From Natronomonas gomsonensis (GTDB lineage: Archaea > Halobacteriota > Halobacteria > Halobacteriales > Haloarculaceae): DNA of 64,000 nt. A program made the position numbers and the translations under genes. Location: NCBI RefSeq assembly GCF_024300825.1, contig NZ_CP101323.1, positions 1,798,001-1,862,000 of the forward strand, given 5' to 3'. Shown in pieces: positions 13,207 to 32,946 of the stretch; positions within the stretch are counted from its first letter, which is position 1, and every line of letters begins with the position of its first letter. The notes under the pieces were generated by a model. The model had not been told where the DNA came from. It did no database searches and saw only the letters and a program-made list of their open reading frames with translations.

Positions 13207-13806
13207 GTGAGCCACACCCGCGGAACGTTCGCCGCGCTCGTCGACGCACTCGTCCCGGAGACGCCCGAACTCGCCGACCGAGGCGAGGAACACGTTCCCG
13301 GCGGCCTCGCAGTCGGACTGGAAGAGGCGATTATCGACCGCGTGAACAACTTTCAGGAGGTCGACGGCGGCGTCCTCGGCGCCGCCGGCTACGACGCGAC
13401 GCCGATGGCACCCGCCGTCGCCGTCCTGCTCGACACTGCGGCCGCGGAACTGCTCGTCCGCCGTCGCAGTGAGGACGGTTTCAACTCGCCGGCCGAGGCG
13501 TTCGCCGGCGGGCCGTTCTCGCGACTCTCCCGTGAGGACCGCCTGCGTGCGCTTCGCTTGCTCGAAGACGAGGGTGTCTTCCCACGGTTGGCCGACCGGT
13601 TCGACTCCGCCGCCCTCGGCACCATCCAGTTCCTCGCCAGTTCCCTGCCGATTCTCGTCGAGTTCGTCTACTACTCCGAGGCGACGGCCGACGACGGCGA
13701 GGAGCGCTCGCTCGGCTGGCAGCAGGCCGACTACCCCGGGCCGGCGGACGGGTATCCGGTCGGAATGGGCTACGAAATAGAGGACTTCGAGGAGAACGAT
13801 TACTGA
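13207..13806 (+). CDS. Gluconate 2-dehydrogenase subunit 3-like partner of the GMC enzyme
   Basis: A 199-residue soluble, mostly helical protein. It starts at a GTG and opens with the FAALVDALVPETPEL pattern characteristic of gluconate 2-dehydrogenase subunit 3 proteins, which assist or accompany flavin-dependent sugar or alcohol dehydrogenases. Its stop overlaps the GMC start as TGATG, so the two are coupled. Bacterial relatives often carry a Tat signal; none is visible here, suggesting a cytoplasmic complex. No cytochrome c subunit is nearby. Confidence 0.75.
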   Translation: MSHTRGTFAALVDALVPETPELADRGEEHVPGGLAVGLEEAIIDRVNNFQEVDGGVLGAAGYDATPMAPAVAVLLDTAAAELLVRRRSEDGFNSPAEAFAGGPFSRLSREDRLRALRLLEDEGVFPRLADRFDSAALGTIQFLASSLPILVEFVYYSEATADDGEERSLGWQQADYPGPADGYPVGMGYEIEDFEENDY

Positions 13807-15584
13807 TGTACGAACGCGACACCGATGTCGTCGTCGTCGGTGCGGGCGGTGACGGCCCGGCGCTGGCGTGGCGACTCGGCCAACTCGGCATCGACGTGAC
13901 GATACTTGAGGCCGGCCCCTTCTACGGCAACGAGAAGTGGGAGGCGCCCAACGACGCCCCGGGCGGCGAACACTCCGGGAACCCCTCGGACCTCTCGGGC
14001 AAACTGTACGACGAGCAGTTCACCTCGAAGGAGGCCGACATGAACGACCCCGTCACCGGGAAACTGCGGTGGGGGCCGGCCGACTCCGACCGGCCGCCGT
14101 GGCAACGGACGGTTCCCCAGCAGGCGCTCATCTCCCAACTGTCGGGCGTCGGCGGAACGACCCAACACTACTACGCAAACCACCCACGGGCGTTCGTCAC
14201 GAGCGTCGACGACCAACCGCACTGGCCAATCGACTACGAGGAACTGGTACCGTACTACCAACTGCTGGAGGAGACCCATCCCGTCGAACCGGCGCCGACG
14301 ACGCCGAAAGCCGAGGTGTTCTTCGAGGGCGCGCGTCGGTCGGGCTACGACCTCAACGACGGATACAACGTCACCGAAGCGGGGTATCGTCCCTTCCCCA
14401 ACGCCATCCCGCAACCGGACGAGCGACTGATGCGCGACGGCGGGGGCGATGTGGAGGAAGACAACGTCCCGGGCGGCGAGAACGGCCAGTACCGCTACCC
14501 AGACTACGAGGGCGACACGCTGGCGATGCACGAACATCAGGGTGGCCCCCATCCCCGAGGCGCGCCGATGCGGGAGCGGGCGCGTCGCTCCTCGAACGTC
14601 TCGCTGGTGCCGCGGGCGCTCGACACCGGTAACGTCGAGATACGACCGAACGCGTTCGCGACGGGCATTCTCACCGAGGGCGGTGCGGCCGAGGAGGCCA
14701 CCGGCGTCGAGTTCCGCGACACGTGGGCGGGGACGACCGAGCGCATCCACGCCGACGTGGTCGTCCTCGCGGCGGGCTGTATCGAGACGCCGCGGCTGTG
14801 GCTCAACTCCGGGTTACCGGATAACGGCTGGGTCGGCCGGGGGCTGACCACCCACCACTTCGATTTCGTCGCGGGCACCTTCGACCCAGATACCCTCGAA
14901 GCGCTCATCGGCCAGCGTGCGGTCGAACCCCATCAGGGGCAGGCCGCCGGTTCGCGGGTCGACGTTCCCGGCAAAGGCGGCATCGCCGTCAACACGTTCG
15001 CGCCCGGCATCACCGCGATGGCGATGTACGCCGCCGCACAGGGCGAGTGGGCCTTCGACCGCGACACCGCGGGCGAGCCGTGGGACACCGCCGGTCGACT
15101 CGCCGGCCGGCAACTCAAAGAACAGATGGCCGACTACCGCCGGACGCTGACGCTCATCTGTCACACCGACGACCGGCCCCGACAGGAAAACGGCGTCTCC
15201 ATCGACGAGACGACCGAGGACGAACACGGTCCCGTCCCGCTCGTCGAGTGGGAGGCCCACCCCGAAGACGACGCCCGACGCGACGACCTCGCCCGACGGG
15301 CCGCGGAAATCCTCGACGAAGCCGGCGCCGAGCACGTCCACCGAACCGACGCCGCGCCGATTCTGTTGCACATGCAGTCCTCGATGGCGATGGGGAAGGT
15401 GCTCGATACGGGCTGTGAGGCGAAGGACGTGAGTCGGCTGTTCGTCGCCGACCACTCGGCGCTTTCCAACGGCGTCGGCGGCGCCAATCCCACCCACTCG
15501 GGGCAGGCGCTGGCGCTGCGGACCGCCGAAGCAGTCGCCGAACGCTACTTCGGCGGCGTCGACGACCCCATCGGGTCCGTCTGA
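13806..15584 (+). CDS. GMC-family FAD oxidoreductase
   Basis: A 592-residue flavoenzyme. The FAD-binding Rossmann motif is VVVVGAGGDGPALAWRLG, ending at acidic TILEAG; GGTTQHYYANHPRAF matches the GMC flavin loop, and the C-terminus has VADHSALSNGVGGANPTHSGQALALRTAE, the conserved substrate/flavin region. Family members oxidise alcohols, sugars, choline or sterols. The start codon overlaps the stop of the subunit 3-like gene. No Tat or Sec signal is present, so it is likely cytoplasmic. The substrate is not deducible; the closest general match is the two-subunit sugar/gluconate dehydrogenase group. Confidence 0.88.
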   Translation: MYERDTDVVVVGAGGDGPALAWRLGQLGIDVTILEAGPFYGNEKWEAPNDAPGGEHSGNPSDLSGKLYDEQFTSKEADMNDPVTGKLRWGPADSDRPPWQRTVPQQALISQLSGVGGTTQHYYANHPRAFVTSVDDQPHWPIDYEELVPYYQLLEETHPVEPAPTTPKAEVFFEGARRSGYDLNDGYNVTEAGYRPFPNAIPQPDERLMRDGGGDVEEDNVPGGENGQYRYPDYEGDTLAMHEHQGGPHPRGAPMRERARRSSNVSLVPRALDTGNVEIRPNAFATGILTEGGAAEEATGVEFRDTWAGTTERIHADVVVLAAGCIETPRLWLNSGLPDNGWVGRGLTTHHFDFVAGTFDPDTLEALIGQRAVEPHQGQAAGSRVDVPGKGGIAVNTFAPGITAMAMYAAAQGEWAFDRDTAGEPWDTAGRLAGRQLKEQMADYRRTLTLICHTDDRPRQENGVSIDETTEDEHGPVPLVEWEAHPEDDARRDDLARRAAEILDEAGAEHVHRTDAAPILLHMQSSMAMGKVLDTGCEAKDVSRLFVADHSALSNGVGGANPTHSGQALALRTAEAVAERYFGGVDDPIGSV

Positions 15585-18650: not shown

Positions 18651-19439
18651 TCAGGCGGAACTGAGCCGTCGACTGCTCAGCGCCACCACGAGCATGACGA
18701 CGATGAGGACGACCGACAGCGCGTTAATCGTCGGCGTCAGGCCGGTTCGCAACATCGTGTAGATGACGACCGGAACGGTGCTCGTCCCCGGTGAAATCAG
18801 GAACTGGGTCGCGGTGAACTCGCCGAAGGAGACGACGAAGGCGATGAACGAGCCAGCGATAATCGCCGGTGAGATGATGGGCCCCGTCACGTGGCGGAAC
18901 GTCGCCATCGGGCCCGCACCGAGGACGCGCGAGGCGCGTTCGAGGTCCTTGTCGTACGTGACCAACTCGGAGCGGACCAGCAGGAAGACGTACGGCAGCG
19001 ACAACACCGTGTGTCCGAGGATGAGCGCCGGGTATCCCGAGGGGAGGCTCAAACTCCCGAAGTACCGGACGAGCGCGATACCCGTGATGACCGGCGAGAT
19101 AATCATCGGCAACAGCATAATCGTCGATATCTGCTCTTTGTAGGGGAACTCACCGCGGACGAAGCCGAAGGCGGCAATCGTCCCGATAATGGCCGAGAGA
19201 ATCGACGAACTCGTGGCGACGACGAGGCTCACCTTCAGCGCGTTGAGGAGGCTCTCGTCGGCCAGGAGTTCGCCGTACCACCGCAGCGACAGCCCCTCCT
19301 GTGGGATGCCCGGGAACGACTGGGGCGTAAAGGAGGTGATAACGACGATGATGACCGGCACCAACAGGAACGCGAACACCGCGACGACGGCCGCGAGGAG
19401 TCCGACCGGTCGGGGACTCGGGAGCGAACGCTCGCTCAT
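18651..19439 (-). CDS. ABC transporter permease, PotC-like
   Basis: A 262-residue inner permease of a polyamine/thiamine/iron-type ABC importer with six hydrophobic helices. The EAA-loop that docks on the ATPase reads RASRVLGAGPMATFRHVTGPIISPAI. It is the last gene of the operon binding protein - ATPase - permease - permease; its ATG overlaps the previous stop by four bases. A T-tract follows the stop. Spermidine/putrescine is the family-level guess only. Confidence 0.88.
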   Translation of the reverse strand: MSERSLPSPRPVGLLAAVVAVFAFLLVPVIIVVITSFTPQSFPGIPQEGLSLRWYGELLADESLLNALKVSLVVATSSSILSAIIGTIAAFGFVRGEFPYKEQISTIMLLPMIISPVITGIALVRYFGSLSLPSGYPALILGHTVLSLPYVFLLVRSELVTYDKDLERASRVLGAGPMATFRHVTGPIISPAIIAGSFIAFVVSFGEFTATQFLISPGTSTVPVVIYTMLRTGLTPTINALSVVLIVVMLVVALSSRRLSSA

Positions 19440-20299
19440 ATGTTTCCGAGCACCTCCCGGAGGTCGAACACCGTGTTGAACACGAGCAGCGTGCCGACGA
19501 GCAGTATCGAGTAGATGACCGCCAGCGCCGAGGCGAACCGAATATTGAAGTTATTCAGGAACGCGCCGGCGATTTCGTTGGCAATCATCGTCTGATTGGG
19601 GCCGCCGAGGACGGCGGGGCCGAGGAACGACCCGGCCGCGAGGATGAACACGATGAGTCCCGCAGCGACGAGCCCGGGGAGGCTCAACGGGAACACGACG
19701 GAGACGAGGGTTCGCCACTGGCTGGCGCCGAGCACCCGTGAGGCGCTGATGAGTTCCCCATCGATGGCGTTCAGGGAGTTGTAAATCGGCAGGACTGCGA
19801 ACGGAAGATACACGTTCGACAGCCCGATGATGACCGCCGGCGTCGTGAACAGCAGCGACGGCTCGATGCCCGTCAGGTCGGCGAAGGGGCCTGCCGGCGA
19901 GAGGAACAGCAGGATACCGAAGTACCGGACGATGTAGGCGATCCACAGCGGAACGATGACGAGCGTCATCGTCAGGCGGACGCGATTGGTCCCGAAGGCC
20001 ATGAAGTAACTAATCAGGTACGCCAACGCGAGCGTCACGGCCGTGGTGACGATGCCGTAGAGGAACGAGCGAACGAAGGCGTCGACGTAGATGCCCCTCG
20101 TGGCCCGTCGGTACGCCTGCAACGGTTCGCCGGTACCGAACGCGAGGCTCTCCGGGACGAGCAGCAGTATCGGGAGGATGAAAAACACCCCGACGAACCC
20201 GAGTCCGAACAGGGCGAGGTGGCTGTTCGTGATTCGCCCCTCGAGCAACTCGCCGATAGAGCCGGCGACACCGTCTACGGTCGGTCGGGAGGTGCTCAT
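19436..20299 (-). CDS. ABC transporter permease, PotB-like
   Basis: A 287-residue permease with six predicted helices after a polar N-terminus. The coupling EAA-loop is ASRVLGASQWRTLVSVVFPLS. It heterodimerises with the next permease. Overlaps of four bases link it to both neighbours (ATPase stop, second permease start), so the three are translated together. Confidence 0.88.
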   Translation of the reverse strand: MSTSRPTVDGVAGSIGELLEGRITNSHLALFGLGFVGVFFILPILLLVPESLAFGTGEPLQAYRRATRGIYVDAFVRSFLYGIVTTAVTLALAYLISYFMAFGTNRVRLTMTLVIVPLWIAYIVRYFGILLFLSPAGPFADLTGIEPSLLFTTPAVIIGLSNVYLPFAVLPIYNSLNAIDGELISASRVLGASQWRTLVSVVFPLSLPGLVAAGLIVFILAAGSFLGPAVLGGPNQTMIANEIAGAFLNNFNIRFASALAVIYSILLVGTLLVFNTVFDLREVLGNI

Positions 20300-21339
20300 A
20301 GCGCAATCACCCGCTCGGGGTCGAATCGGAGGTGGACGTCGTCACCGACGTCGATGTCCGGGAACCGGTTCGTGTGGGCGAGCGCTTCGTTCCCGTCGGT
20401 CAACTCGACTGTCACCTCCGCGCGGTTGCCGAGGTTGGCGACGTTGACGACGCGACCCGTTATCTCGTTTTCCGTGCCTTCGGCCGTCCGACTTACTTCG
20501 ATGTCCTCCGGGCGGACGTACAGCGTGGCGTCGTCGCCGTCCTCGACGCCGGTTCCCTCGACCGTGATGGCCTTGTTGTGGTTGTTGACGACCGCGCGGT
20601 CGCCCTCCCGAGAGACGGGGCCGCTGAATCGGGTTGATTTCCCGACGAACTCGGCGACGAAGGGGCTGGCGGGCGACTCGTAGATGCGCTCGGGGGAGTC
20701 TATCTGCTCGGAGTGGCCGTCGTTCAACACGATGACGGTGTCGGACATCGACAGCGCGTCCTCTTGGTCGTGGGTGACGTACAGCGTCGTCACGCCGACC
20801 TCCTTTTGAATGCGGTTGAGCCAGCCGCGCATCTCCTCGCGGAGGACCCTGTCGAGGCCGGTCAGCGGTTCGTCCAACAGGAGGATGTCGGGTTCGTACG
20901 CCAGCGCCCGCGCCAGCGAGACGCGCTGCTGTTGGCCGCCGGAGAGTTCCCCCGGCTTGTGCTCACCGTGGTCGGGCATGTCGACGAGTTCCAGGGACTC
21001 CTCGACGCGCTCTTCGACGGCTGTCGAGTCGTGACCGTGCATCTTGAGCCCGAAGGCGATGTTCTCCCGGACCGTCATGTGCGGAAACAGCGCGGTGGAC
21101 TGAAACGCCATCCCGATGTTGCGTTTCTCCGGCGGGAGGTCGGTCACGTCCTCGCCGCGGAGCAGAATCTGCCCGTCGGTCGGTTCGACGAGGCCGGCGA
21201 TGGCGTGGAGCGTCGTCGATTTCCCACACCCCGAGGGGCCGAGTAGCGTGACGAACTCCCCTTCGTCGATGTCGAACGAGAGGTTCTCTACCGCACACAG
21301 GTCACCGTAATACTTCGTGAAATCGCGAACTTCGAGCAT
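20296..21339 (-). CDS. ABC transporter ATP-binding protein, PotA-like
   Basis: A 347-residue ATPase. Walker A GPSGCGKSTT (about 34-43), signature LSGGQQQRVSLARAL, Walker B ILLLDEPLTGLD and the switch His in YVTHDQEDAL are all present. The last 100 residues form a TOBE domain (VRPEDIEV, NRAEVTVELTDG), typical of PotA/MalK-type ATPases and often regulatory. It starts 9 bases after the binding-protein gene and overlaps the first permease gene by four bases. Confidence 0.93.
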   Translation of the reverse strand: MLEVRDFTKYYGDLCAVENLSFDIDEGEFVTLLGPSGCGKSTTLHAIAGLVEPTDGQILLRGEDVTDLPPEKRNIGMAFQSTALFPHMTVRENIAFGLKMHGHDSTAVEERVEESLELVDMPDHGEHKPGELSGGQQQRVSLARALAYEPDILLLDEPLTGLDRVLREEMRGWLNRIQKEVGVTTLYVTHDQEDALSMSDTVIVLNDGHSEQIDSPERIYESPASPFVAEFVGKSTRFSGPVSREGDRAVVNNHNKAITVEGTGVEDGDDATLYVRPEDIEVSRTAEGTENEITGRVVNVANLGNRAEVTVELTDGNEALAHTNRFPDIDVGDDVHLRFDPERVIAL

Positions 21340-21348
21340 GCTGCAGTA

Positions 21349-22482
21349 TTACCCCTGCTTGATTTCGTTCAATCGGTCGGTCCAGGCGTCTTCCTTCGGG
21401 AGGACAACGTCCCAATCGCGGAACGCGAGGTCCTCGGCCGGAGCGTAGTCCGGCAGTTGGGTCATCTTCTCGGGTGGGTTCTTCACCTGCACCGTGTAGT
21501 TCATCATGTCCGACAGCGTCAGCAGGTGCTCCCGCTGGTAGGTGTGGTTCAGCAGTTCGTGGGCCAACTCGCGGCTCTCGGTGCCCTTGACGATGGCGAG
21601 GTTGTCGGTCCACCCCATCGCACCCTCCTCGGGGATGACGTACTCGATGTGGTCGTACCCCTCCTCCTGCAGTGCGAGCACGCGGCCGCCCCACGCCTCA
21701 CAAATCCAGGCGTTCTCCTGTCGCAGGTACCGGATGGACGTGGCGCCGTCGCCCCAGTAGTTGAAGACGTTCTGGTCCTGTTCCTCGGCCTCGGTGAACA
21801 TCTGGTCGGTCTTCGCCTCGTCGCCGGGCACCTCGTTGACGTTGAGGTCGGCGGCGGCGGCGCAGTTCGACAGTCGGTCGATGGTTCGGTCGATGAGCGA
21901 CACCTTCCCCTCGTAGGCAGGGTCTTTGATGTCCTCCCAGGAGGAGAGTTCGCCGTCGACCTTCTCGGTGTTGTAGGCGTAGCCGGTCGCGCCGTTCTCC
22001 CGGATGAGGCCCATGGTGTCGTCGCCGTCGACGTTGAACGACAGCGAGCGGGCCGACTCCTTGATGTTCTTCTCGTAGTTCGGCACCATCGAGAGGTCGA
22101 TGGGTTCGATGACATCCTCCTGTTGGGCGCGCGCCATCCCCGTGTCGTTGAGCGCGACGATGTCGAACGAACCGGGGTTCTGCTTGATGAGCGAAATCAT
22201 CTCCGTGGTCCCGCCGGCTTCGGTGCCGGAGACTTCCGTCCCGGTCTCTTCGGCCCACGGTTCGAAGACGGTCATCTGTGCCTCCTGGGTGTTCCCACCG
22301 AAGCCGAGGAAGCGGAGTTCGCCGCCTCCGCCGCCTCCGCCGTTTCCGCCACCGTTGCCGTTTCCATTTCCGTTGCCGTTTCCGCCACCGTTACCGCCGA
22401 GACAGCCCGCCAGTCCGGCGAGTGTTCCTGCCCCAACGGTTGTCAATACGTCACGCCGTCTGTAGTTCGAGCCCTTCGACAT
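21349..22482 (-). CDS. Tat-exported substrate-binding lipoprotein, PotD-like
   Basis: A 377-residue extracellular binding protein of the PotD/spermidine-putrescine type. From the ATG at 22482 it starts MSKGSNYRRRDVLTTVGAG with twin arginines and a lipobox LAGC, so it is a Tat lipoprotein anchored outside the cell, as usual in haloarchaea. A Gly/Asn linker (GNGNGN repeats) follows. The mature part has the class I/PotD pattern (GFGGNTQEAQMTVFEPWAEETG; later LNHTYQREHLLTLSD). It is the first gene of the ABC operon. Polyamines are the likely but unproven ligand. A TATA box lies about 30 bases upstream. Confidence 0.9.
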   Translation of the reverse strand: MSKGSNYRRRDVLTTVGAGTLAGLAGCLGGNGGGNGNGNGNGNGGGNGGGGGGGELRFLGFGGNTQEAQMTVFEPWAEETGTEVSGTEAGGTTEMISLIKQNPGSFDIVALNDTGMARAQQEDVIEPIDLSMVPNYEKNIKESARSLSFNVDGDDTMGLIRENGATGYAYNTEKVDGELSSWEDIKDPAYEGKVSLIDRTIDRLSNCAAAADLNVNEVPGDEAKTDQMFTEAEEQDQNVFNYWGDGATSIRYLRQENAWICEAWGGRVLALQEEGYDHIEYVIPEEGAMGWTDNLAIVKGTESRELAHELLNHTYQREHLLTLSDMMNYTVQVKNPPEKMTQLPDYAPAEDLAFRDWDVVLPKEDAWTDRLNEIKQG

Positions 22483-22507
22483 GGCTATGAGTCTGTTACA
22501 CACACTC

Positions 22508-22517
22508 CTATAATAAA
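22508..22517 (-). promoter_or_regulatory. TATA box of the PotD-like operon
   Basis: TTTATTATAG on the minus strand, centred 31 bases before the PotD-like ATG, giving a leader of a few bases. Confidence 0.55.
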
Positions 22518-22540
22518 CTATCCCAAGATATTGCCCTCCA

Positions 22541-22557
22541 TTCGGAGATTTTCCGAA
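22541..22557. promoter_or_regulatory. Perfect inverted repeat between divergent transport and acyl-CoA operons
   Basis: TTCGGA-GATTT-TCCGAA: 6-base arms with a 5-base centre. It lies between the two TATA boxes of the divergent operons at 22482 (minus) and 22620 (plus), a place where one regulator could act on both. Confidence 0.55.
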
Positions 22558-22584
22558 CTCAAGAGACTATTTTGAAAATCAGCC

Positions 22585-22594
22585 AAAGTTTATG
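22585..22594 (+). promoter_or_regulatory. TATA box of the enoyl-CoA hydratase operon
   Basis: AAAGTTTATG, with the TATA-like core centred about 28 bases before the GTG at 22620. This favours a leaderless transcript starting at the GTG. Confidence 0.5.
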
Positions 22595-22619
22595 TGGGTG
22601 AGTCACGAGGAGTAAGCCA

Positions 22620-23429
22620 GTGGCAGACATGACGACGACAGATTCCAAGGCGGACTCCCCGACCGTCTACGAGGTCGATGGCGACATCGCCCGCATCCGA
22701 CTCAACCGACCCGACCGACTCAACGCCGTGACCGGCGAACTCTACGAAGGGGTCCAGTCGGGGCTCGAACGCGCCGAGGACGACGACGCGCGCGTCGTCG
22801 TCCTCGAAGGCGAAGGTCGAGCGTTCTGCGTCGGCGCCGACATGCAGAATCACGATGAACAACAGCGGTCGGCGAAGGAACGGCGCGACTACGCTTGGAC
22901 GGCCCAAGACGCGTGTAAGGCCGTCCAGACACATCCGGCACCGGTCATCTCGAAGGTCCACGGCTACGCCATCGGTGGCGGCGCCGAACTCGCGATGAGT
23001 GCGGACTTCATCCTCATGGGCGCCGACGCGGAGTTGCGCTTCCCCGAGGTGAGCATCGGGACCTACATCGGCGGCGGTCTCACCTACACCCTCGCCCAGC
23101 GCGTCGGCGCCGCCCGCGCGAAGGAACTCGTCCTGTCGGCGGCGACGCTGACCGGCACCGAAGCCGCCGAGGAGGGCGTCGTCACGAGAGCGGTCGAGGA
23201 ATCCGAACTCGACGACGCCGTCGACGAGTTGGCGGCCGACCTCGCCGGCAACGCACCGATACCGATGGAGTTCGCGAAATCGCAGTTCGGCCGCGTCGGC
23301 TCGGCGACCCGAGACGACATGCTGACTGCCGAGGCGGAGGCGCTGTTGGCCTGCATGGGAACGGAGGACTGGCAGGAGGGCGTCGACGCCTTCGCCGACG
23401 ACCGAGAACCGACGTTCGTGGGTGAGTGA
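22620..23429 (+). CDS. Enoyl-CoA hydratase/isomerase family protein (first copy)
   Basis: A 269-residue crotonase-fold enzyme. The oxyanion-hole segments are VVVLEGEGRAFCVGADMQ and KVHGYAIGGGAELAMSADF, and RFPEVSIGTYIGGG marks the second catalytic region. Crotonases hydrate or isomerise acyl-CoA thioesters in beta-oxidation or degrade specific carboxylic acids. The GTG at 22620 fits the TATA spacing; the ATG at 22629 is the alternative. Its stop overlaps the acyl-CoA synthetase start (GTGA). Confidence 0.9.
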   Translation: MADMTTTDSKADSPTVYEVDGDIARIRLNRPDRLNAVTGELYEGVQSGLERAEDDDARVVVLEGEGRAFCVGADMQNHDEQQRSAKERRDYAWTAQDACKAVQTHPAPVISKVHGYAIGGGAELAMSADFILMGADAELRFPEVSIGTYIGGGLTYTLAQRVGAARAKELVLSAATLTGTEAAEEGVVTRAVEESELDDAVDELAADLAGNAPIPMEFAKSQFGRVGSATRDDMLTAEAEALLACMGTEDWQEGVDAFADDREPTFVGE

Positions 23430-25615
23430 CCGTGTCGGACACAACCGACATCGACCGCATCATGGACCCCGATGCGGTCGCCATCGTTGGCGCCTCGACC
23501 GACGAGACCAAACGCGGCTATCAGGCCATCGAGACGCTCCAGGAAGGCGGCTACGAGGGCGACATCTATCCGGTCAACCCCGGTGCTGAGGAGATTCGCG
23601 GCCTCGAAGTGTATCCAACGGTCTCCGCGATTCCCAGCCGGGTCGACCTCGCACTCATCGTCACGCCTGCCCACGTCGTCCCGGACGTACTCGAAGACTG
23701 CGGCGGGACTGACCTCGCTGGCGCCGTCGTCATCGCGGTCGGCTTCGGGGAAGCCGGCACCGACGGCGAGGCCCTGGAACGCGAAATCGTCTCGCTGGCC
23801 GAACGACACGGCATCAGACTCATCGGGCCGAACACCTCCGGGATGATTAACGTCCACGCAGGGCTGAACCTCGTCGGCGCCGACGGCGTTCCCGAAGGGG
23901 GCCTCGGCTTGCTCTGTCAGAGTGGCAACATGGCGATTTCGCTGTTTACGGAGGCTGCGACGCGGGAAGGCGTCGGCTACAGCCACTACGTCGGCGTCGG
24001 CAACGAGGCGGACCTCAAGTTCCACGAGTACCTCCCGTATCTGAACGACGACCCCGAAACCGACGCCATCGTGCTGTACGTCGAGGGGATGAGCGAGGGG
24101 CGAGCGTTCCTGCAGGCCGCACGCGAGGTCACGCCGGAGACGCCAATCATCGCGCTCAAGAGCGGCCGGTCGGCCGTCGGCAAGCAGTCGGCATCCTCGC
24201 ACACCGGCGCGCTGGCGGGCGACAGCACGGTGGCCCACGCCGTCCTCGAACAGGCCGGCGTCGTCAGCGTCGAACGCTCCGACGAACTGCTCGCCGTCGC
24301 GAACTCGCTGTCGTCGCTGCCGGCCGCAGACGGCCCGAACGTCGGCATCCTCGCCGACGGCGGCGGCCACGCGACGCTCGCCGCCGACGCCCTCGCCGAA
24401 CGCGGCCTCTCGGTCCCGGAAGTGACCGACGAGACCCAACAGCGCCTCGATGAGGTGTTGCCGGACGCCGCGAGCGTCGTCAATCCCGTCGACGTGGCCG
24501 GCGGCACCGACGACGACCAGCGCGTCTTCTACGATTGTGCGGAGGCTATCGTATCCGACCCGAACGTCGACGCGCTGTTGCTCGCCGGCCTCTTCGGCGG
24601 CTACGGCATCCGCTTTGCCGAGCAGTACACCGACGTAGAATGTGGGGTCGCCGAGGAGTTGGTGACGCTGGCCGAGCGCCACGACACCCCCATCGTCGTC
24701 CAGAGCGCCTACGCGGAGTTCGACACCGAACCCCACGAGATACTCCGGGAATCGGGCATTCCGGTCGTCGAGTCGATAGACGTCGCCGCCAGCAGCCTCG
24801 AATCGCTGGCCGCCTACGGCGAGCACCTCGCCACCGCCGACGAGAAGAGCGACTTCCGATTCGACGGCGCGGACAACGATGCCGCCGAAATCCGCCACGC
24901 AATCGAGGCGGGGCGCCGACAGCTCTCTGAGTACACCGCAAAGCGGGCGCTCCGCGAGCGGGGCTTGCCCGTCGTTCCGTTCGAGTTGGCCGAATCACCC
25001 AGCGAGGCGCTCGATGCGGCGACCGACGCCGACGGCCCGGTCGCGATGAAGGTGGTGTCGCCGGACATCGTCCACAAATCCGACGCCGGCGGCGTGGCGT
25101 TGGGCGTCGACGACGACGACGTCGAGGCGACCTACGAGGAACTCCTCGCGGCCGCCGAATCGTACGCTCCCGACGCCGATATCGAAGGCGTCCTCGTCTC
25201 GCCGATGCGGGAGGGCAGCGTCGAACTCATCGTCGGCGTCGTCGACGACGAACAGTTCGGTCGCGTGATGATGGTCGGTCTCGGCGGCGTCTTCGTGGAA
25301 GTCCTCGAAGACGTGGCGTTCCGTGCGCTCCCGCTTTCGGAGGCCGACGCCCGCGACATGCTCGACGACATCGAGGCCCAAGAACTGCTGGACGGCGCCC
25401 GCGGGAACCCGCCAGTCGACCGCGATGCCGTCGTCGACTTCCTGTTGGAGGTGTCGGCGTTCGTCGAGGCCAACCCCGCGGTCGAGGAACTGGATTTGAA
25501 CCCGGTGTTCGCCGACGACGACGGCGTCGAAATCGTCGACGCTGCGGTGACGCTCCGCACTCCAGGGACCGACACTGAAACGGCCCCGGCCCCTGTAGGT
25601 GAGAGCGATGATTGA
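23426..25615 (+). CDS. ADP-forming acyl-CoA synthetase, fused alpha and beta subunits
   Basis: A 729-residue NDP-forming acyl-CoA synthetase. A CoA-binding Rossmann domain (AIVGASTDETKRGYQAIETL) is followed by ligase domains with the phospho-histidine motif SSHTGALAGD (around residue 254) and a C-terminal ATP-grasp domain from about residue 490 (SEYTAKRALRERGLPVVP; VAMKVVSPDIVHKSDAGGV). These enzymes interconvert acyl-CoA, ADP and phosphate with acid, CoA and ATP. It is the second gene of a four-gene overlapping operon with two crotonases and a nitrilase-type amidase. Substrate acid unknown; acetate is only one option. Confidence 0.92.
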   Translation: MTVSDTTDIDRIMDPDAVAIVGASTDETKRGYQAIETLQEGGYEGDIYPVNPGAEEIRGLEVYPTVSAIPSRVDLALIVTPAHVVPDVLEDCGGTDLAGAVVIAVGFGEAGTDGEALEREIVSLAERHGIRLIGPNTSGMINVHAGLNLVGADGVPEGGLGLLCQSGNMAISLFTEAATREGVGYSHYVGVGNEADLKFHEYLPYLNDDPETDAIVLYVEGMSEGRAFLQAAREVTPETPIIALKSGRSAVGKQSASSHTGALAGDSTVAHAVLEQAGVVSVERSDELLAVANSLSSLPAADGPNVGILADGGGHATLAADALAERGLSVPEVTDETQQRLDEVLPDAASVVNPVDVAGGTDDDQRVFYDCAEAIVSDPNVDALLLAGLFGGYGIRFAEQYTDVECGVAEELVTLAERHDTPIVVQSAYAEFDTEPHEILRESGIPVVESIDVAASSLESLAAYGEHLATADEKSDFRFDGADNDAAEIRHAIEAGRRQLSEYTAKRALRERGLPVVPFELAESPSEALDAATDADGPVAMKVVSPDIVHKSDAGGVALGVDDDDVEATYEELLAAAESYAPDADIEGVLVSPMREGSVELIVGVVDDEQFGRVMMVGLGGVFVEVLEDVAFRALPLSEADARDMLDDIEAQELLDGARGNPPVDRDAVVDFLLEVSAFVEANPAVEELDLNPVFADDDGVEIVDAAVTLRTPGTDTETAPAPVGESDD

Positions 25616-26405
25616 AGTCGACGCCCCCATCGAAACCGAGTGGCTCACCGAGTACGTCGCCTGCGTGAGATACGACCGCCCCGACGCGATGAACGCCTAC
25701 AACGAGGCGCTGCTCCGCGGCGCCGTCGAGGCTTTCGAGACGCTGGACGACCGCGAGGACGTCCGGGCCATTGTCCTCACCGGTGCCGGCGACGCCTTCT
25801 GTGCGGGCGTCGACCTCACGGACATGCCGTTGACGCCCGAGATGGACTTCGCGGAGTACGAGGCCGGCCTCGGCCTGTTCCAGAACGTCGTTCGGACGCT
25901 TCGCGGCATCTCGACGCCGGTCATCGCGGCCGTCAACGGCTACGCCTTGGGCGCCGGTTGTGACACCGCCCTCGCCTGTGACTTCCGCATCACGAGCGAC
26001 GAGGGCGTCATCGGTGAGACGTTCATCGACGTCGGGTTCGTCCCCGGCGACGGTGGCGCGTTCCTCCTGCCCCGGCTCATCGGCGAGGCCCGCGCCAAGG
26101 AACTCATCTTCACCGGCCGGAAGCTTTCCGGCGAGGAAATCGTCGAGTGGGACCTCGCCAGAGAGCAAGTCGCCGCCGACGAACTGCTTGACGCCGCTGT
26201 GGCCTTCGGCAGCGAACTCGCCGACCGACCGCCCGTCGCACTCGCGGAGAGCAAACGGCTGGTCAACGAGAGTTTCGACACCGAACTCGACGACGCCCTC
26301 GCGGATGCGACCCGCGCCCAGCGCATCTGCTCGCAAACCCGCGACCACGAGGAGGCCGTCGCGGCCTTCCAGGAGGACCGCGAACCGGAGTTCGAGGGGC
26401 GATGA
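25608..26405 (+). CDS. Enoyl-CoA hydratase/isomerase family protein (second copy)
   Basis: A 265-residue crotonase paralogue. AIVLTGAGDAFCAGVDLTD and AAVNGYALGAGCDTALACDF are the oxyanion-hole regions, and ETFIDVGFVPGDGGAFLLPR the catalytic loop. The ATG at 25608 overlaps the synthetase stop by eight bases; an in-frame ATG three codons earlier is less likely. It differs clearly from the first copy, so the two probably catalyse different steps. Confidence 0.9.
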   Translation: MIEVDAPIETEWLTEYVACVRYDRPDAMNAYNEALLRGAVEAFETLDDREDVRAIVLTGAGDAFCAGVDLTDMPLTPEMDFAEYEAGLGLFQNVVRTLRGISTPVIAAVNGYALGAGCDTALACDFRITSDEGVIGETFIDVGFVPGDGGAFLLPRLIGEARAKELIFTGRKLSGEEIVEWDLAREQVAADELLDAAVAFGSELADRPPVALAESKRLVNESFDTELDDALADATRAQRICSQTRDHEEAVAAFQEDREPEFEGR

Positions 26406-27190
26406 ACCCCTTCAACTGTACCGTCGTCCAGTTCGACGCGCCCCCCGAAGAGCCGAAATCGGAGACGCTTTCGAGAATGGTGGCGGCAATCGAGGCCACC
26501 GACGCCGATTTAGTGGTGTTTCCCGAACTCGCGACGACGGGGTATCACGTCTTCGACCGACTCGATGACCTCGCGGAACCGGTCGGCGGAGAGACGACGG
26601 AAACGCTCGGCGCGGCCGCCGACGCCGCCGACAGCGAGGTGCTGTTCGGGATGCCGCTGGCCGACGGTGATGCGGTGTACAACGCCGCCGTCTGGCTCGA
26701 CGCCGACGGCGACGTTCGGGGCCGCTACGACAAACGCCACCTCTGGGGTGCCGAACGGGACGCCTTCGATGCGGGCGAGCGCTATCTCGTCGTCGAGGCG
26801 CCGTTCGGCCGCGTCGGCGTCCAGATATGTTACGACCTCGCCTTCCCCGAAGCCAGCGCCGCGCTGGCCCGCGCGGAGTGTGACCTCTTGGTGAACCTCT
26901 CGGCGTGGACGGTGCAGATGGAGCGGGACTGGCAGACGCTGCTGCCGGCCCGTGCCGTCGAACAGGGTGCCTACGTCATCGGGTGTAATCGAGCGGGGAC
27001 GGAAGCCGGCGACAGTTTCTGTGGGAGCAGCATGGTCGTCGAACCCGATGGAACGACAATCGCGGAGTTGGGCAACGACGCCGGCCGACTGACGGCGACG
27101 CTGGAACCGGACATCGTCGCCGCGGAACGACGACGCAATCCCATGCGAGTCGACCGCCACGACGACCGCATCGACGCCGAAACGAGCTAA
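26402..27190 (+). CDS. Nitrilase-superfamily amidohydrolase
   Basis: A 262-residue carbon-nitrogen hydrolase. The catalytic triad is visible: Glu in VVFPELATTGYH, Lys in YDKRHLWG and Cys in VGVQICYDLAFPE. The group cleaves amides, N-carbamoyl compounds or omega-amides rather than true nitriles. It overlaps the second crotonase by four bases and ends the operon. Its place with acyl-CoA enzymes and next to a polyamine-type importer suggests removal of an amide nitrogen from an imported compound; that is inference. Confidence 0.88.
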   Translation: MNPFNCTVVQFDAPPEEPKSETLSRMVAAIEATDADLVVFPELATTGYHVFDRLDDLAEPVGGETTETLGAAADAADSEVLFGMPLADGDAVYNAAVWLDADGDVRGRYDKRHLWGAERDAFDAGERYLVVEAPFGRVGVQICYDLAFPEASAALARAECDLLVNLSAWTVQMERDWQTLLPARAVEQGAYVIGCNRAGTEAGDSFCGSSMVVEPDGTTIAELGNDAGRLTATLEPDIVAAERRRNPMRVDRHDDRIDAETS

Positions 27191-27245
27191 CAACGCCATG
27201 GAACGAACCCCACACGCCTCGGAACCCGACCGAGGCCAAGACAAG

Positions 27246-27253
27246 TTATTAAC
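27246..27253 (+). promoter_or_regulatory. TATA box of the Lrp-type regulator gene
   Basis: TTATTAAC, centred about 28 bases before the second in-frame ATG (27278) and 16 before the first (27266). The spacing favours a leaderless start at 27278. Confidence 0.5.
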
Positions 27254-27265
27254 GAACGCACATCG

Positions 27266-27775
27266 ATGAGCGAAACGATGCCAGAGGTCACGCTCGACGA
27301 GACCGACTTCGAGATACTCCGACGTCTCGACGAGGACGGCGAGGTTAGCGTTGACGAACTGAGCGACGAACTGGACGTGAGCGCGTCGACGATTTACTAC
27401 CGCCTCGAAGGGTATCGCGAACAGGGAATCGTCGAGGGACAGATTTCGAAACTCGACCCACAGAAACTCGGCCTCGGACTGACAGCGATTACCGAAATCG
27501 ACGCCAACTACGACGGTCCCGGCTACGAGGAAATCGCGGAGCGGCTCTCGGCGCTCTCCGGTGTCCAGCGGGTGTTCTTCATGCTCGGCGAGATGTCGTT
27601 TTACGTCATCTCACGGGTTCGCGACCACGAACACCTTCAGACGCTGATGGAGTCGATTATCCAGACTGAGGGCGTCGAGAACTCGAACACCAACGTCGTG
27701 CTTCGGACGTTCAAAGACGAGGACCGACTGCTCGTCAACTACGACGACGAGGATTTAGAGACGATTTTCGAGTGA
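27266..27775 (+). CDS. Lrp/AsnC-family transcriptional regulator
   Basis: A 169-residue regulator (165 if it starts at 27278, as the TATA position suggests). The N-terminal HTH reads LDETDFEILRRLDEDGEVSVDELSDELDVSASTIYYRLEGY; the rest is the ligand-binding RAM-like domain (ITEIDANYDGPGYEEIAERLSALSGVQRVFF). It follows the acyl-CoA/nitrilase operon by 75 bases with its own promoter and could control that operon or the polyamine importer through the palindrome at 22541. That link is not shown directly. Confidence 0.9.
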   Translation: MSETMPEVTLDETDFEILRRLDEDGEVSVDELSDELDVSASTIYYRLEGYREQGIVEGQISKLDPQKLGLGLTAITEIDANYDGPGYEEIAERLSALSGVQRVFFMLGEMSFYVISRVRDHEHLQTLMESIIQTEGVENSNTNVVLRTFKDEDRLLVNYDDEDLETIFE

Positions 27776-29870: not shown

Positions 29871-32252
29871 CTACAGTTCGGGGTCGGTGTACACTTCGTC
29901 GAGGTCGATGTTCGGCTCCCGCTGGGGCTTCGAGTCGGGCACCGTCGACTCCTCGGGGGTGGCTTCGCGGGTCCGACACATCAACACCTCGTGGGTACTC
30001 CGGGCGGCTTCGGCGTCGGCCGGTCGCTGTTGGACGTAACTGCCGTCGGGGCGCATCGTCCAGCGCTTGCGGTTGTCGTCAAGCATTATCTGGAGTATCT
30101 CGTCGAGTTGGTCCCGTAAGGTGGGGTCCTCGACGGGGGTGACGGCCTCGACTCGGCGGTCGAGGTTTCGGGTCATCCAGTCGGCGGACCCGATGAAGTA
30201 GTCGGCGTCGTCGCCGGTGCCGAACCGGAAGATGCGGGAGTGTTCGAGGAACCGCCCCACGACGCTGTGGACACGAACGGTGTCGGTGACGCCCTCGATG
30301 CCGGGTCGGAGCCGACAGATACCGCGGACGATGAGGTCGATTTCGACGCCCGCCTCGGCAGCGTCGTACAGTTTCCGGACCACGTCGGGGTCCTCCAGTG
30401 AGTTCATCTTCGCGACGATGCGGCCCTCTCCGCCGCGCTCGGCACGTTCGCGCTCGCGGTCGATGAGTTCGTGTAGCCGCTCTCGGAGCGTCTCGGGGGC
30501 GACGAGCAGTTTCCGATAGGTCTGCTGTCGGGAGTGGCCGGTAAAGGAGTTGAACAGTCGGACGATGTCCTGTCCGACGTCCGGGTCGGCGGTGAACAGC
30601 CCCAAATCGACGTACCCCTTGGCGGTGCCGGAGTGGTAGTTACCGCTTGCGACGTGGGAGTAAATGCGCACGTCGTCGTCTTCCTCGCGGACGGCGAGGG
30701 CGACCTTGCTGTGGGTTTTGAGGCCGATAGAGCCGTAGGCGACGTGGATGCCCTCCTCTTCGAGGCGCTTGACCCACCGGAGGTTGTTCTCCTCGTCGAA
30801 GCGGGCCTTCAACTCGACCATCACGGCCACCTGCTTGCCGTTCTTCGCGGCGTCGATGAGGCTCCGAATCACCTTCGAGTCGGGGGCTGTCCGGTAGATG
30901 GCGGCCTTGATAGCGAGGGTGTCGGGGTCGTGGGCGGCGGTGTCGAGAAACGACTGGACGGTGTCGGCGAAACTGTGATACGGGTGGTGGACGAGGGCGT
31001 CACCTTCGCGTATCATGTCGAAGACGGCCTCGGGTCGGTCGGGGTTCAGCCCCGCGAACCGAGGGTGCGGTTGCGGCGTCCACGAATCGAGTTTCAACGC
31101 CGGGTACTCGAGGTCGACGAGCGCCTCGAAGTCCGTCAGCGCCAGCGGCTCCGGCCGCGAGAACACCTCCTCGGTTCCGACATCGAGGTGTTCAACCAGT
31201 AGCTCTCGAACCGGGTCGGGCGTGTTCTCAGCGATTTCGAGACGGACGACCGTCGCAAAGCGACGCTGGCGGAGCACGTCCTCGATGCGCTCGATGAGGC
31301 CCTCCGCGACGTCCTCGTTGCGTCTGACCTCGGCGTTGCGCGTGACACGGAACGTCGAGGAGTGACACACGTCGACGTTCGGAAAGAGCAAATCGAGGTT
31401 CCCCTCGATGACGCCCTCCAGCGGGACGAACCGGTCGTCGCCGTCGGCCTCGGTGACGGATGCTCCGGGGTCGGACACCGAGACGAGTCGCGGTCGGTTG
31501 GCCGGCACCTTGATTCGTGAAAACCGTTCCTCGCCGTGAGAATCGCGGGTGAGCACCGCGACGGACAACGAGAGGTTCGAGATGAAGGGGAACGGATGGG
31601 CCGGGTCGAACGTCAGCGGGGTCAGCGTCGGCAGCACCGAGGACTCGAAATACGACCGCAGGCGTCGGCGTTCGGCGTCGGTGAGGTCGCCGTAGGTGAG
31701 GAGTTCGATGCCGCTGTCGGCGAGTAGCGGCCGTACCGCCTCGTGGAAGCACCGCGATTGGGTCTCGAAGAGGTCTGCGGTGACATCGAGCGCCGCAGTC
31801 CACTGTTCGCGCGGCGTCAACCCGTCGACGGTCGGTTCGGTCACGTCGGCGGCGAGTTGCTGTTTCAGCCCGCCGATTCGCTTCATGAAGAATTCATCGA
31901 GGTTCCGGGTGAGGATGCTCAGAAACCGGAGGCGCTCCAGCGGTGGGTTGCGCTCGTCGAGGGCCTCATACAGGACGCGCCACTGGAAGTTCAACTCCGA
32001 CAGTTCGCGGTTGAGGTACCACGCCGGGTCAGTCCGTGGTCGCTCCGAGTTGGGTACCTCGGGTCCGGTCGGCAGGGTCTGAGCCGGCGCGTCGATAGCC
32101 CACGTTTCCGGCGACAACTCCACGGGGGTCGTCGTCGGCTCATCTCCAGTGTCGTCGTCGGTGGCATCCTCCGAGGCGGTCTCGTCATCCGGCGTTTCCG
32201 CTCCTGATGGTGTGGCGTTCTCGCGCTCTTCGGAAGACTGCTCGCCAGCCAT
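29871..32252 (-). CDS. ppk1: Polyphosphate kinase 1
   Basis: A 793-residue Ppk1 that polymerises the ATP gamma-phosphate into polyphosphate and can run in reverse. After about 70 acidic disordered residues the N domain starts at YLNRELSELNFQWRVL; the catalytic region shows GLKTHSKVALAVR with the likely phospho-histidine, and HVASGNYHSGTAKGYVDLGLFT. The C-terminus has YFIGSADWMTRNLDRRVE. The ATG at 32252 is preferred; 26 residues upstream look non-coding. It follows the metallophosphatase stop by a single base, so the two are an operon for phosphate or nucleotide handling. Confidence 0.93.
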   Translation of the reverse strand: MAGEQSSEERENATPSGAETPDDETASEDATDDDTGDEPTTTPVELSPETWAIDAPAQTLPTGPEVPNSERPRTDPAWYLNRELSELNFQWRVLYEALDERNPPLERLRFLSILTRNLDEFFMKRIGGLKQQLAADVTEPTVDGLTPREQWTAALDVTADLFETQSRCFHEAVRPLLADSGIELLTYGDLTDAERRRLRSYFESSVLPTLTPLTFDPAHPFPFISNLSLSVAVLTRDSHGEERFSRIKVPANRPRLVSVSDPGASVTEADGDDRFVPLEGVIEGNLDLLFPNVDVCHSSTFRVTRNAEVRRNEDVAEGLIERIEDVLRQRRFATVVRLEIAENTPDPVRELLVEHLDVGTEEVFSRPEPLALTDFEALVDLEYPALKLDSWTPQPHPRFAGLNPDRPEAVFDMIREGDALVHHPYHSFADTVQSFLDTAAHDPDTLAIKAAIYRTAPDSKVIRSLIDAAKNGKQVAVMVELKARFDEENNLRWVKRLEEEGIHVAYGSIGLKTHSKVALAVREEDDDVRIYSHVASGNYHSGTAKGYVDLGLFTADPDVGQDIVRLFNSFTGHSRQQTYRKLLVAPETLRERLHELIDRERERAERGGEGRIVAKMNSLEDPDVVRKLYDAAEAGVEIDLIVRGICRLRPGIEGVTDTVRVHSVVGRFLEHSRIFRFGTGDDADYFIGSADWMTRNLDRRVEAVTPVEDPTLRDQLDEILQIMLDDNRKRWTMRPDGSYVQQRPADAEAARSTHEVLMCRTREATPEESTVPDSKPQREPNIDLDEVYTDPEL

Positions 32253-32253
32253 C

Positions 32254-32946
32254 TCAGTCGGCGGAGGTGTCGGGTGAGATGATTTTCGAGTCGCTGCGAC
32301 TGACGCCGCCCCGTTTCGACGGCACGTCACGGTAGCGACCGTTGCGCACGTCGTAGGCTGTCAGTGACCCGCCGTAGACACATCCGGTATCGAGGCCGAC
32401 CGCCCACTCTCGCTTGAGCGGTCGTTCAAGAACCGTGTGGCCGAAGAACACGCGCGGCGGACCCTCGTAGTCGTCGTACCAGAAGGGGCCTTCGTAGCCG
32501 CCGGCAGGCGACAGCGACCGGACGTTCTGGAGGTCATCGACCGTGTGTTCGGCCAGCGCCTTCCGTGGGTCGACCCCGGCGTGGACGACTAGGCCGCCGT
32601 CGAACCCGATGGCGACCGGCAGCGACCGAAGCCACTCGCGGTGGTCCTCGTCCAAACCCTCGACCACCGTCTCACCGCGCAGAACCTTCTCCTCGTTGTT
32701 GCCGCGGACGCTGTACATGTTCGGTGAGTCGCGGAGCAACTCGACGACGCCGGCGCTGTCCGGCCCCTTTCGAATCAGGTCGCCGACGAAGACGACGAGG
32801 TCCTCCTCGCCGATGTCGAGCGTCCCCAGCAGTCGGTCGAGTGACTCCCGGCAGCCGTGAACGTCTCCGACGACGTAGACGTCATCCCAGGCATCGAGGT
32901 CGAGACGAAGGTACTGTTCGGCGACATCGGGGTGGAAATCCAGCAT
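32254..32946 (-). CDS. Metallophosphoesterase (PrpE/ApaH-like)
   Basis: A 230-residue calcineurin-fold phosphatase. Metal motifs are GDVHG, GDLIRKGPDS, GNNEEKVL, HAGVDP and FFGHT, in the order expected of PPP-type or ApaH/PrpE enzymes; the usual DRG is KGP and the usual GNHE is GNNE. Such enzymes cleave phosphoproteins or dinucleoside polyphosphates. It is the first gene of the operon with ppk1, with one base between them. A near-TATA (CTTAAC) sits about 28 bases upstream and a perfect TATACATGTATA palindrome 52-63 bases upstream. Confidence 0.9.
   Translation of the reverse strand: MLDFHPDVAEQYLRLDLDAWDDVYVVGDVHGCRESLDRLLGTLDIGEEDLVVFVGDLIRKGPDSAGVVELLRDSPNMYSVRGNNEEKVLRGETVVEGLDEDHREWLRSLPVAIGFDGGLVVHAGVDPRKALAEHTVDDLQNVRSLSPAGGYEGPFWYDDYEGPPRVFFGHTVLERPLKREWAVGLDTGCVYGGSLTAYDVRNGRYRDVPSKRGGVSRSDSKIISPDTSAD

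Follow-up and report, generated by a model that had tools for sequence, protein, structure and literature searches.

In the haloarchaeon Natronomonas gomsonensis, nine genes of a 64,000-nucleotide stretch of contig NZ_CP101323.1 (the whole stretch is hereafter called the window) encode a PotABCD-like ABC importer with its substrate-binding protein (SBP) and, diverging from it, two crotonases (ECH1 and ECH2), an ADP-forming acyl-CoA synthetase (ACD), a nitrilase-superfamily amidase (NIT) and an Lrp/AsnC-family regulator (LRP). We propose, with a probability of roughly 0.55, that this unit by itself provides for the uptake and activation of a single small nitrogen-bearing organic acid, which would be zwitterionic or would arrive as an amide. 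The proposal builds on the conservation of the nine genes across haloarchaeal genera, on the catalytic residues of the enzymes and on the recurrence of the ECH1-ACD pair in bacteria.

The nine-gene unit is more than a chance neighbourhood. When named genomes and 391 haloarchaeal genomes were scanned, all nine genes turned up in unchanged order in 13 distinct genomes of several haloarchaeal genera: the window, N. gomsonensis (locus L032), Natronomonas sp. CBA1123 (L033), Natrinema hispanicum (L034), Haloterrigena sp. H1 (L035), Halogranum amylolyticum (L036) and the further loci L090, L110, L111, L112, L115, L116 and L117 (L109 equals L032 and L124 equals L033, each pair being counted once). 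The window ACD is 97% identical to that of L032. A preliminary description of this DNA had suggested that importer and enzymes could serve one function, a view that would have failed had the two been separated in all relatives; they in fact stand together in all 13 full loci. LRP is likewise present in all 13, and also in two loci (L113 and L114) that keep a Pot-type importer and ECH1-ACD-ECH2 and are devoid of NIT. Genes in fetched loci were called by composition score or open reading frame length, with no trained gene finder.

The ACD of this group was found in 11 of the 391 sampled haloarchaea (16 passed the E-value threshold, the remaining 5 with a sister group of ACDs only) and in 3 of 20 genomes within the genus. 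Moreover, among 145 genomes, close orthologues of SBP, ACD and NIT were confined to two genomes, each of which has all three. This distribution fits gain and loss of the block as one piece. No neighbour recognizable as a gene is common to the flanks of L034, L035, L036 and the window, the one matching frame (window position 18891) lying antisense inside the PotC gene; a second PotA-type ATPase was seen in the flanks of L034 and L035. It should be noted that the ACD reading frame of Natronomonas sp. CBA1123 (L033/L124, the same contig) is broken, either by a sequencing error or as a pseudogene.

The pairing of ECH1 with ACD is ancient and older than the haloarchaeal unit. The nearest non-haloarchaeal ACDs (about 43–53% identical) belong to Syntrophomonadaceae, to Desulfobacterota and related lineages, and to Spirochaetota. 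All of the 29 bacterial loci carry, immediately upstream of the related ACD and on the same strand, a crotonase for which ECH1 is the best match, whereas the flanks of ordinary haloarchaeal ACDs (about 1.5 kb on each side) contained a crotonase in 0 of 27 loci. These 29 loci comprise 9 from a first bacterial set and 20 regions chosen from 36 genomes with matches, duplicate metagenome-assembled genomes included, and in six of them (L154, L156, L157, L159, L160 and L162) the crotonase is just 31–35% identical to ECH1. In that first set, Bradyrhizobium and Frankiales rows aside, a crotonase was seen in 13 of 15 loci, and the two others (L043 and L053) start inside ACD at a contig end. Three motifs, NPVDVAGG, GLFGGYGIRF and GPNTSGM, recur with small variations in the ACDs of both this haloarchaeal group and the bacterial pairs; the sister group and other ACDs have different sequences there. 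In a tree of 49 of the 68 ACDs (19 ordinary haloarchaeal ones were left out), the branching order of the haloarchaeal group and the bacterial pairs was poorly supported (support 34). The Bradyrhizobium matches (L054–L057, 31–32%) are distant, sit on a very long branch and were kept out of the argument.

Transporter genes stand near some of these relatives. TRAP transporter genes lie near 5 of the 20 regions added to the bacterial set (L154, L159 and L161, identified by Pfam, and L169 and L173, identified through their similarity to L161), and the sister haloarchaeal ACD group (46–53%) adjoins BCCT transporters (L119 and L120, by Pfam). The sister group also carries a protein resembling crotonyl-CoA carboxylase/reductase, recognized in L119 and L121 by an NCBIfam match below cut-off, in L120 by Pfam ADH_zinc_N and in L125 by clustering. 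In the spirochaete loci L037 and L052, a second crotonase follows ACD as in the window, but it is of a different sort.

Some further features of these loci were observed. The sister loci L118–L121, L123 and L125 contain the reductase-like protein of 600–650 amino acids together with crotonases, IclR-like regulators and FAD oxidases, and are candidates for a betaine or dimethylsulfoniopropionate (DMSP)-type catabolic locus. In Syntrophomonadaceae (L040, L041, L042, L044, L047 and L167), two tandem ACD genes follow the crotonase and fall into two separate groups of the tree. In the deltaproteobacterial loci L039, L046 and L048, the crotonase-ACD pair adjoins a gene of 870–880 amino acids that reads by eye as ClpB.

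Turning to the enzymes themselves, the ACD possesses the phosphohistidine loop SHTGALAG in addition to the CoA-binding, ligase and ATP-grasp domains of its superfamily. Against the NCBIfam models of ADP-forming CoA ligases it scores 503 bits for acetate (cut-off 1200), 438 for 4-hydroxybutyrate and 437 for 3-hydroxypropionate (cut-off 1300 each), and 443 bits against the acetate-CoA ligase alpha subunit model (cut-off 567). Its first PDB match is a 3-hydroxypropionate-CoA ligase, with a 4-hydroxybutyrate-CoA ligase at about equal score. In ECH1, the hydratase-type glutamates E123 and E143 are invariant in 12 of 12 sequences, and the nearest PDB entry is a 3-hydroxypropionyl-CoA dehydratase (5zai). 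Enzymes of the 3-hydroxypropionate/4-hydroxybutyrate cycle (Nitrosopumilus, Metallosphaera) are the closest solved full-length ACDs and the closest solved crotonase; however, 437–438 bits is set against cut-offs of 1300 and the unit has no carbon-fixation context.

ECH2 has Asp and Phe at the two hydratase glutamate positions. Its nearest PDB entries are Thermus PaaG, and at the position of the catalytic Asp of PaaG (D136) it has Gly, with an Asp one residue later. Because both glutamates and the PaaG aspartate position are missing, ECH2 is unlikely to be a second hydratase. In NIT, the catalytic residues E42, K111 and C143 are invariant in 9 of 9 sequences, as is E118. The best NCBIfam model for NIT is PRK10438, the omega-amidase YafV (100 bits, cut-off 249), and the PDB entry that matches it best carries the name nitrilase or beta-ureidopropionase. 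NIT therefore resembles the YafV/Nit2 omega-amidase branch in its best NCBIfam match and its catalytic residues, but stays under the 249-bit cut-off.

The importer was initially described as a full PotABCD-like system of polyamine type. An ATPase with a TOBE domain, two BPD_transp_1 permeases and a PotD-family SBP alignable to PotD are indeed found together, as in E. coli PotABCD, so the assignment holds at superfamily level only, and a specificity for polyamines is not supported. None of the NCBIfam equivalog cut-offs is reached (PotC 168 of 326 bits, PotB 126 of 348, PotA 341 of 482, PotD 46 of 582, and 337 of 355.6 for the ATPase against TIGR01187), and the importer, unlike that of E. coli, is genetically tied to acyl-CoA enzymes. 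In the SBP, the twin arginine and the lipobox Gly-Cys are invariant among 19 aligned proteins. The residues of the spermidine site of PotD are W229, W255, D257, D168 and E171. The first three are kept as W264, W291 and D293 (numbered from the ATG at 22482), whereas the D168 position is Arg199 in seven aligned unit members and the E171 position is Asp202; next to it, the V172 position is Arg203, invariant in 19 of 19 aligned proteins. Taken together, these positions, with Arg in place of one PotD carboxylate, may point to a ligand in which a carboxylate neighbours a cationic or amide group.

Related SBPs (33–39%) occur in other haloarchaeal loci (L083–L086) amid acyl-CoA dehydrogenases, CoA ligases and crotonases. 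Those loci differ from the unit in having AMP-type ligases and a CoA-transferase in place of ACD and 4–5 SBP copies, and no amidase was seen in them. They are large clusters (L083 and L084 in genome G120, L085 and L086 in genome G144) in which an APH-family kinase, a type III CoA-transferase and a single PotABC were also seen, and it looks as if several binding proteins deliver to one ABC core.

Beyond the gene identities, catalytic residues, conservation of the unit and ECH1-ACD pairing observed above, we infer a substrate, an order of reactions, a role for ECH2 and a mode of regulation. The substrate is most likely a small carboxylate or zwitterion that arrives partly as an amide; TRAP and BCCT importer families suit small carboxylates or zwitterions, and it is mainly because such importers stand near the relatives of the ACD that this class is proposed. 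The Tat-exported lipoprotein would capture the compound and PotABC would import it. The amidase would release ammonia from the amide form, and ACD would couple the acid to CoA through phosphohistidine, yielding ADP. At the beta carbon of this acyl-CoA, ECH1 would then add or eliminate water (or an amine). ECH2 would catalyse another acyl-CoA reaction, probably an isomerisation, whose product would join ordinary acyl-CoA metabolism encoded elsewhere, with Lrp as the putative local regulator.

Several results weigh against this proposal. No enzyme reaches any substrate-specific NCBIfam cut-off, and no test pointed to a particular substrate. L113 and L114 use a different SBP (22–23% identity), a transporter is not visible near most bacterial pairs, and no amidase was found beside the bacterial pairs examined. 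Since NIT is also missing in 2 of 15 haloarchaeal loci, amide hydrolysis is not essential to the route, the amidase is accessory, and nitrogen removal is not a general step. The pathway first sketched for this locus, namely import of an amine or amide, nitrogen removal, activation and beta-oxidation-like steps, is thus retained for import, CoA activation and crotonase chemistry, because importer and enzymes stay together in the 13 full loci, and is given up for nitrogen removal as a general step. It had also been stated that no such pathway was described in haloarchaea. This agrees with searches of open-licence PMC papers, subscription papers and preprints lying outside their scope: they brought up no description of the locus, and terms looked for in PMC9895928 gave no hit.

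Among other explanations, the unit may act as a betaine or sulfonium lyase system, in which DMSP, beta-alanine betaine or a carnitine-like compound is activated with CoA, loses its onium group to give an enoyl-CoA, as with DddX, and is hydrated by ECH1. We regard this as unlikely, although several observations point that way: the ACD is in the superfamily of DddX, the ATP-dependent DMSP lyase (235 bits), with the same phosphohistidine loop and GNEAD motif; the SBP retains the aromatic and Asp positions of PotD; and the sister group has BCCT transporters, the crotonyl-CoA-reductase-like protein and a crotonase, with a GbcA-like Rieske oxygenase also in L119. However, W391 and E432, given as key residues of the DMSP lyase in PMC8163506, are not conserved in the window ACD, where pairwise alignment places Ala at the first and approximately Tyr at the second. 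The same paper describes a DddX cluster with a BCCT transporter and dehydrogenases, in place of which the unit has PotABC, crotonases and an amidase. An amidase would be superfluous for a betaine, and of the carnitine (cai)/betaine set neither a BCCT transporter, a CoA-transferase nor an AMP-forming ligase is found in the unit; the organism's own genome has no BCCT transporter.

A slightly less probable explanation is that importer and enzymes share only a regulator, the importer serving general nitrogen uptake and the enzymes general short-chain fatty-acid metabolism. The other kind of SBP in L113 and L114 would agree with this, as would the bacterial ECH1-ACD pairs, which are without any Pot importer, but importer and enzymes co-occur strictly across genera, and their presence is patchy yet joint.

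It is rather improbable that the substrate is of beta-alanine type, for example 3-ureidopropionate, which NIT would decarbamoylate before ACD formed beta-alanyl-CoA, one crotonase eliminated ammonia to give acryloyl-CoA and the other crotonase hydrated this to 3-hydroxypropionyl-CoA. The best PDB matches of ECH1 and ACD (the first match, for the latter) and the name of the NIT match would suit such a route, and L125 of the sister group adjoins a gamma-glutamylputrescine synthetase-like gene and Pot genes. Yet these matches are weak and generic, 4-hydroxybutyrate-CoA ligase doing about as well, the best NCBIfam model of NIT is the omega-amidase YafV, and we know of no crotonase-fold ammonia-lyase. 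Least probable is breakdown of an aromatic compound or phenylacetamide, with NIT producing phenylacetate, ACD activating it and PaaG-like ECH2 and PaaF-like ECH1 acting after ring epoxidation: the PaaG match of ECH2 and two PaaA/PaaC family genes far off in the genome (C1:803680-805675) are outweighed by Gly at the PaaG catalytic position, by the fact that no ring-opening genes were seen within or around those full loci for which the flanking genes had been called, and by the occurrence of the bacterial pair in lineages of anaerobes.

The operon-like reading can be extended, more tentatively and at somewhat below even odds, beyond the haloarchaea. ECH1-ACD may lie at the heart of a CoA-dependent route, so far undescribed, that is dedicated to one specific organic acid and used alike by Desulfobacterota, Syntrophomonadaceae, spirochaetes and haloarchaea, to which haloarchaea would have added the importer, amidase, ECH2 and Lrp, making a transferable nine-gene, amide-using unit.

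As for regulation, the preliminary description had placed a perfect palindrome at 22541-22557 and had raised the binding of Lrp to it. The sequence there, TTCGGA-GATTT-TCCGAA, is a gapped inverted repeat, two 6-bp arms flanking 5 bp. At up to one mismatch, it occurs once in the 64-kb window against 0.5 expected, and at least once in 41 of 100 dinucleotide shuffles; within the intergenic region, 6-bp inverted repeats were equally numerous in 30% of 200 mononucleotide shuffles. The exact repeat was missing from the homologous intergenic regions of all six relatives first checked, N. gomsonensis L032 among them, and in the comparison of 13 loci it was found in the window alone. Because the repeat is expected by chance and is not conserved, the palindrome as an Lrp operator was rejected as stated. 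Most of the 13 loci do retain a TATA-like element at either side. The closest relatives show a degenerate remnant, TTnGG...TTCnGAA, and the TCCGAA half-site recurs in L115–L117 and the window (noticed post hoc).

Open reading frame analysis and profile scans of the window found the nine genes at their expected coordinates and strands (Table 1), the importer block (18651-22503, minus strand) diverging from the enzyme and regulator block (22620-27775, plus strand). The overlapping arrangement first reported for the two crotonases, ACD and amidase, with Lrp behind them, was borne out: the overlap is 4 bp at both the ECH1/ACD and the ECH2/NIT junction and, given a GTG start for ECH2, 17 bp between ACD and ECH2, and LRP starts 75 bp downstream of NIT. 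The SBP has a conserved ATG at 22482, and the likely start of ECH1 is the ATG at 22629.

Table 1. Genes and promoter region of the nine-gene unit, in window coordinates.
Feature	Position	Strand	Domains and remarks
PotC-like ABC permease	18651..19439	-	PF00528; kept in all full loci
PotB-like ABC permease	19436..20299	-	PF00528
PotA-like ABC ATPase with TOBE domain	20296..21339	-	PF00005 and PF08402
PotD-family substrate-binding protein (SBP), Tat-type lipoprotein	21349..22503	-	PF13416/PF13343; PotD-family matches in PDB
Divergent promoter region	22504..22619	none	TATA-like element at each side; 22541-22557, gapped inverted repeat (not conserved)
Crotonase 1 (ECH1)	22620..23429	+	PF00378
ADP-forming acyl-CoA synthetase (ACD), single chain	23426..25615	+	CoA-binding, Succ_CoA_lig and ATP-grasp_5 domains
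Crotonase 2 (ECH2)	25599..26405	+	PF00378
Nitrilase-superfamily amidase (NIT)	26402..27190	+	PF00795
Lrp/AsnC-family regulator (LRP)	27266..27775	+	PF13412 (helix-turn-helix) and PF01037 (AsnC ligand-binding)

Outside the unit, a polyphosphate kinase 1 gene (window 29871-32330) lies 2.1 kb downstream, and none was seen beside the unit in the other genera. A GMC-type oxidoreductase gene behind a shorter gene (window 13806-15584; L091 2565-4334) has a similar second pair elsewhere in the genome.

Overall, a gene set held together across haloarchaeal genera, with a two-gene core that recurs in three bacterial phyla, points to a real metabolic route whose enzymes are currently annotated with superfamily names only. 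Once the substrate is found, it would be clear which nitrogen compound is consumed in brines, and perhaps in anoxic sediments, and a generically named group of crotonases and ADP-forming CoA ligases would receive a function. If the wider route holds, the haloarchaeal unit would open the amide of that acid as a source of both carbon and nitrogen.

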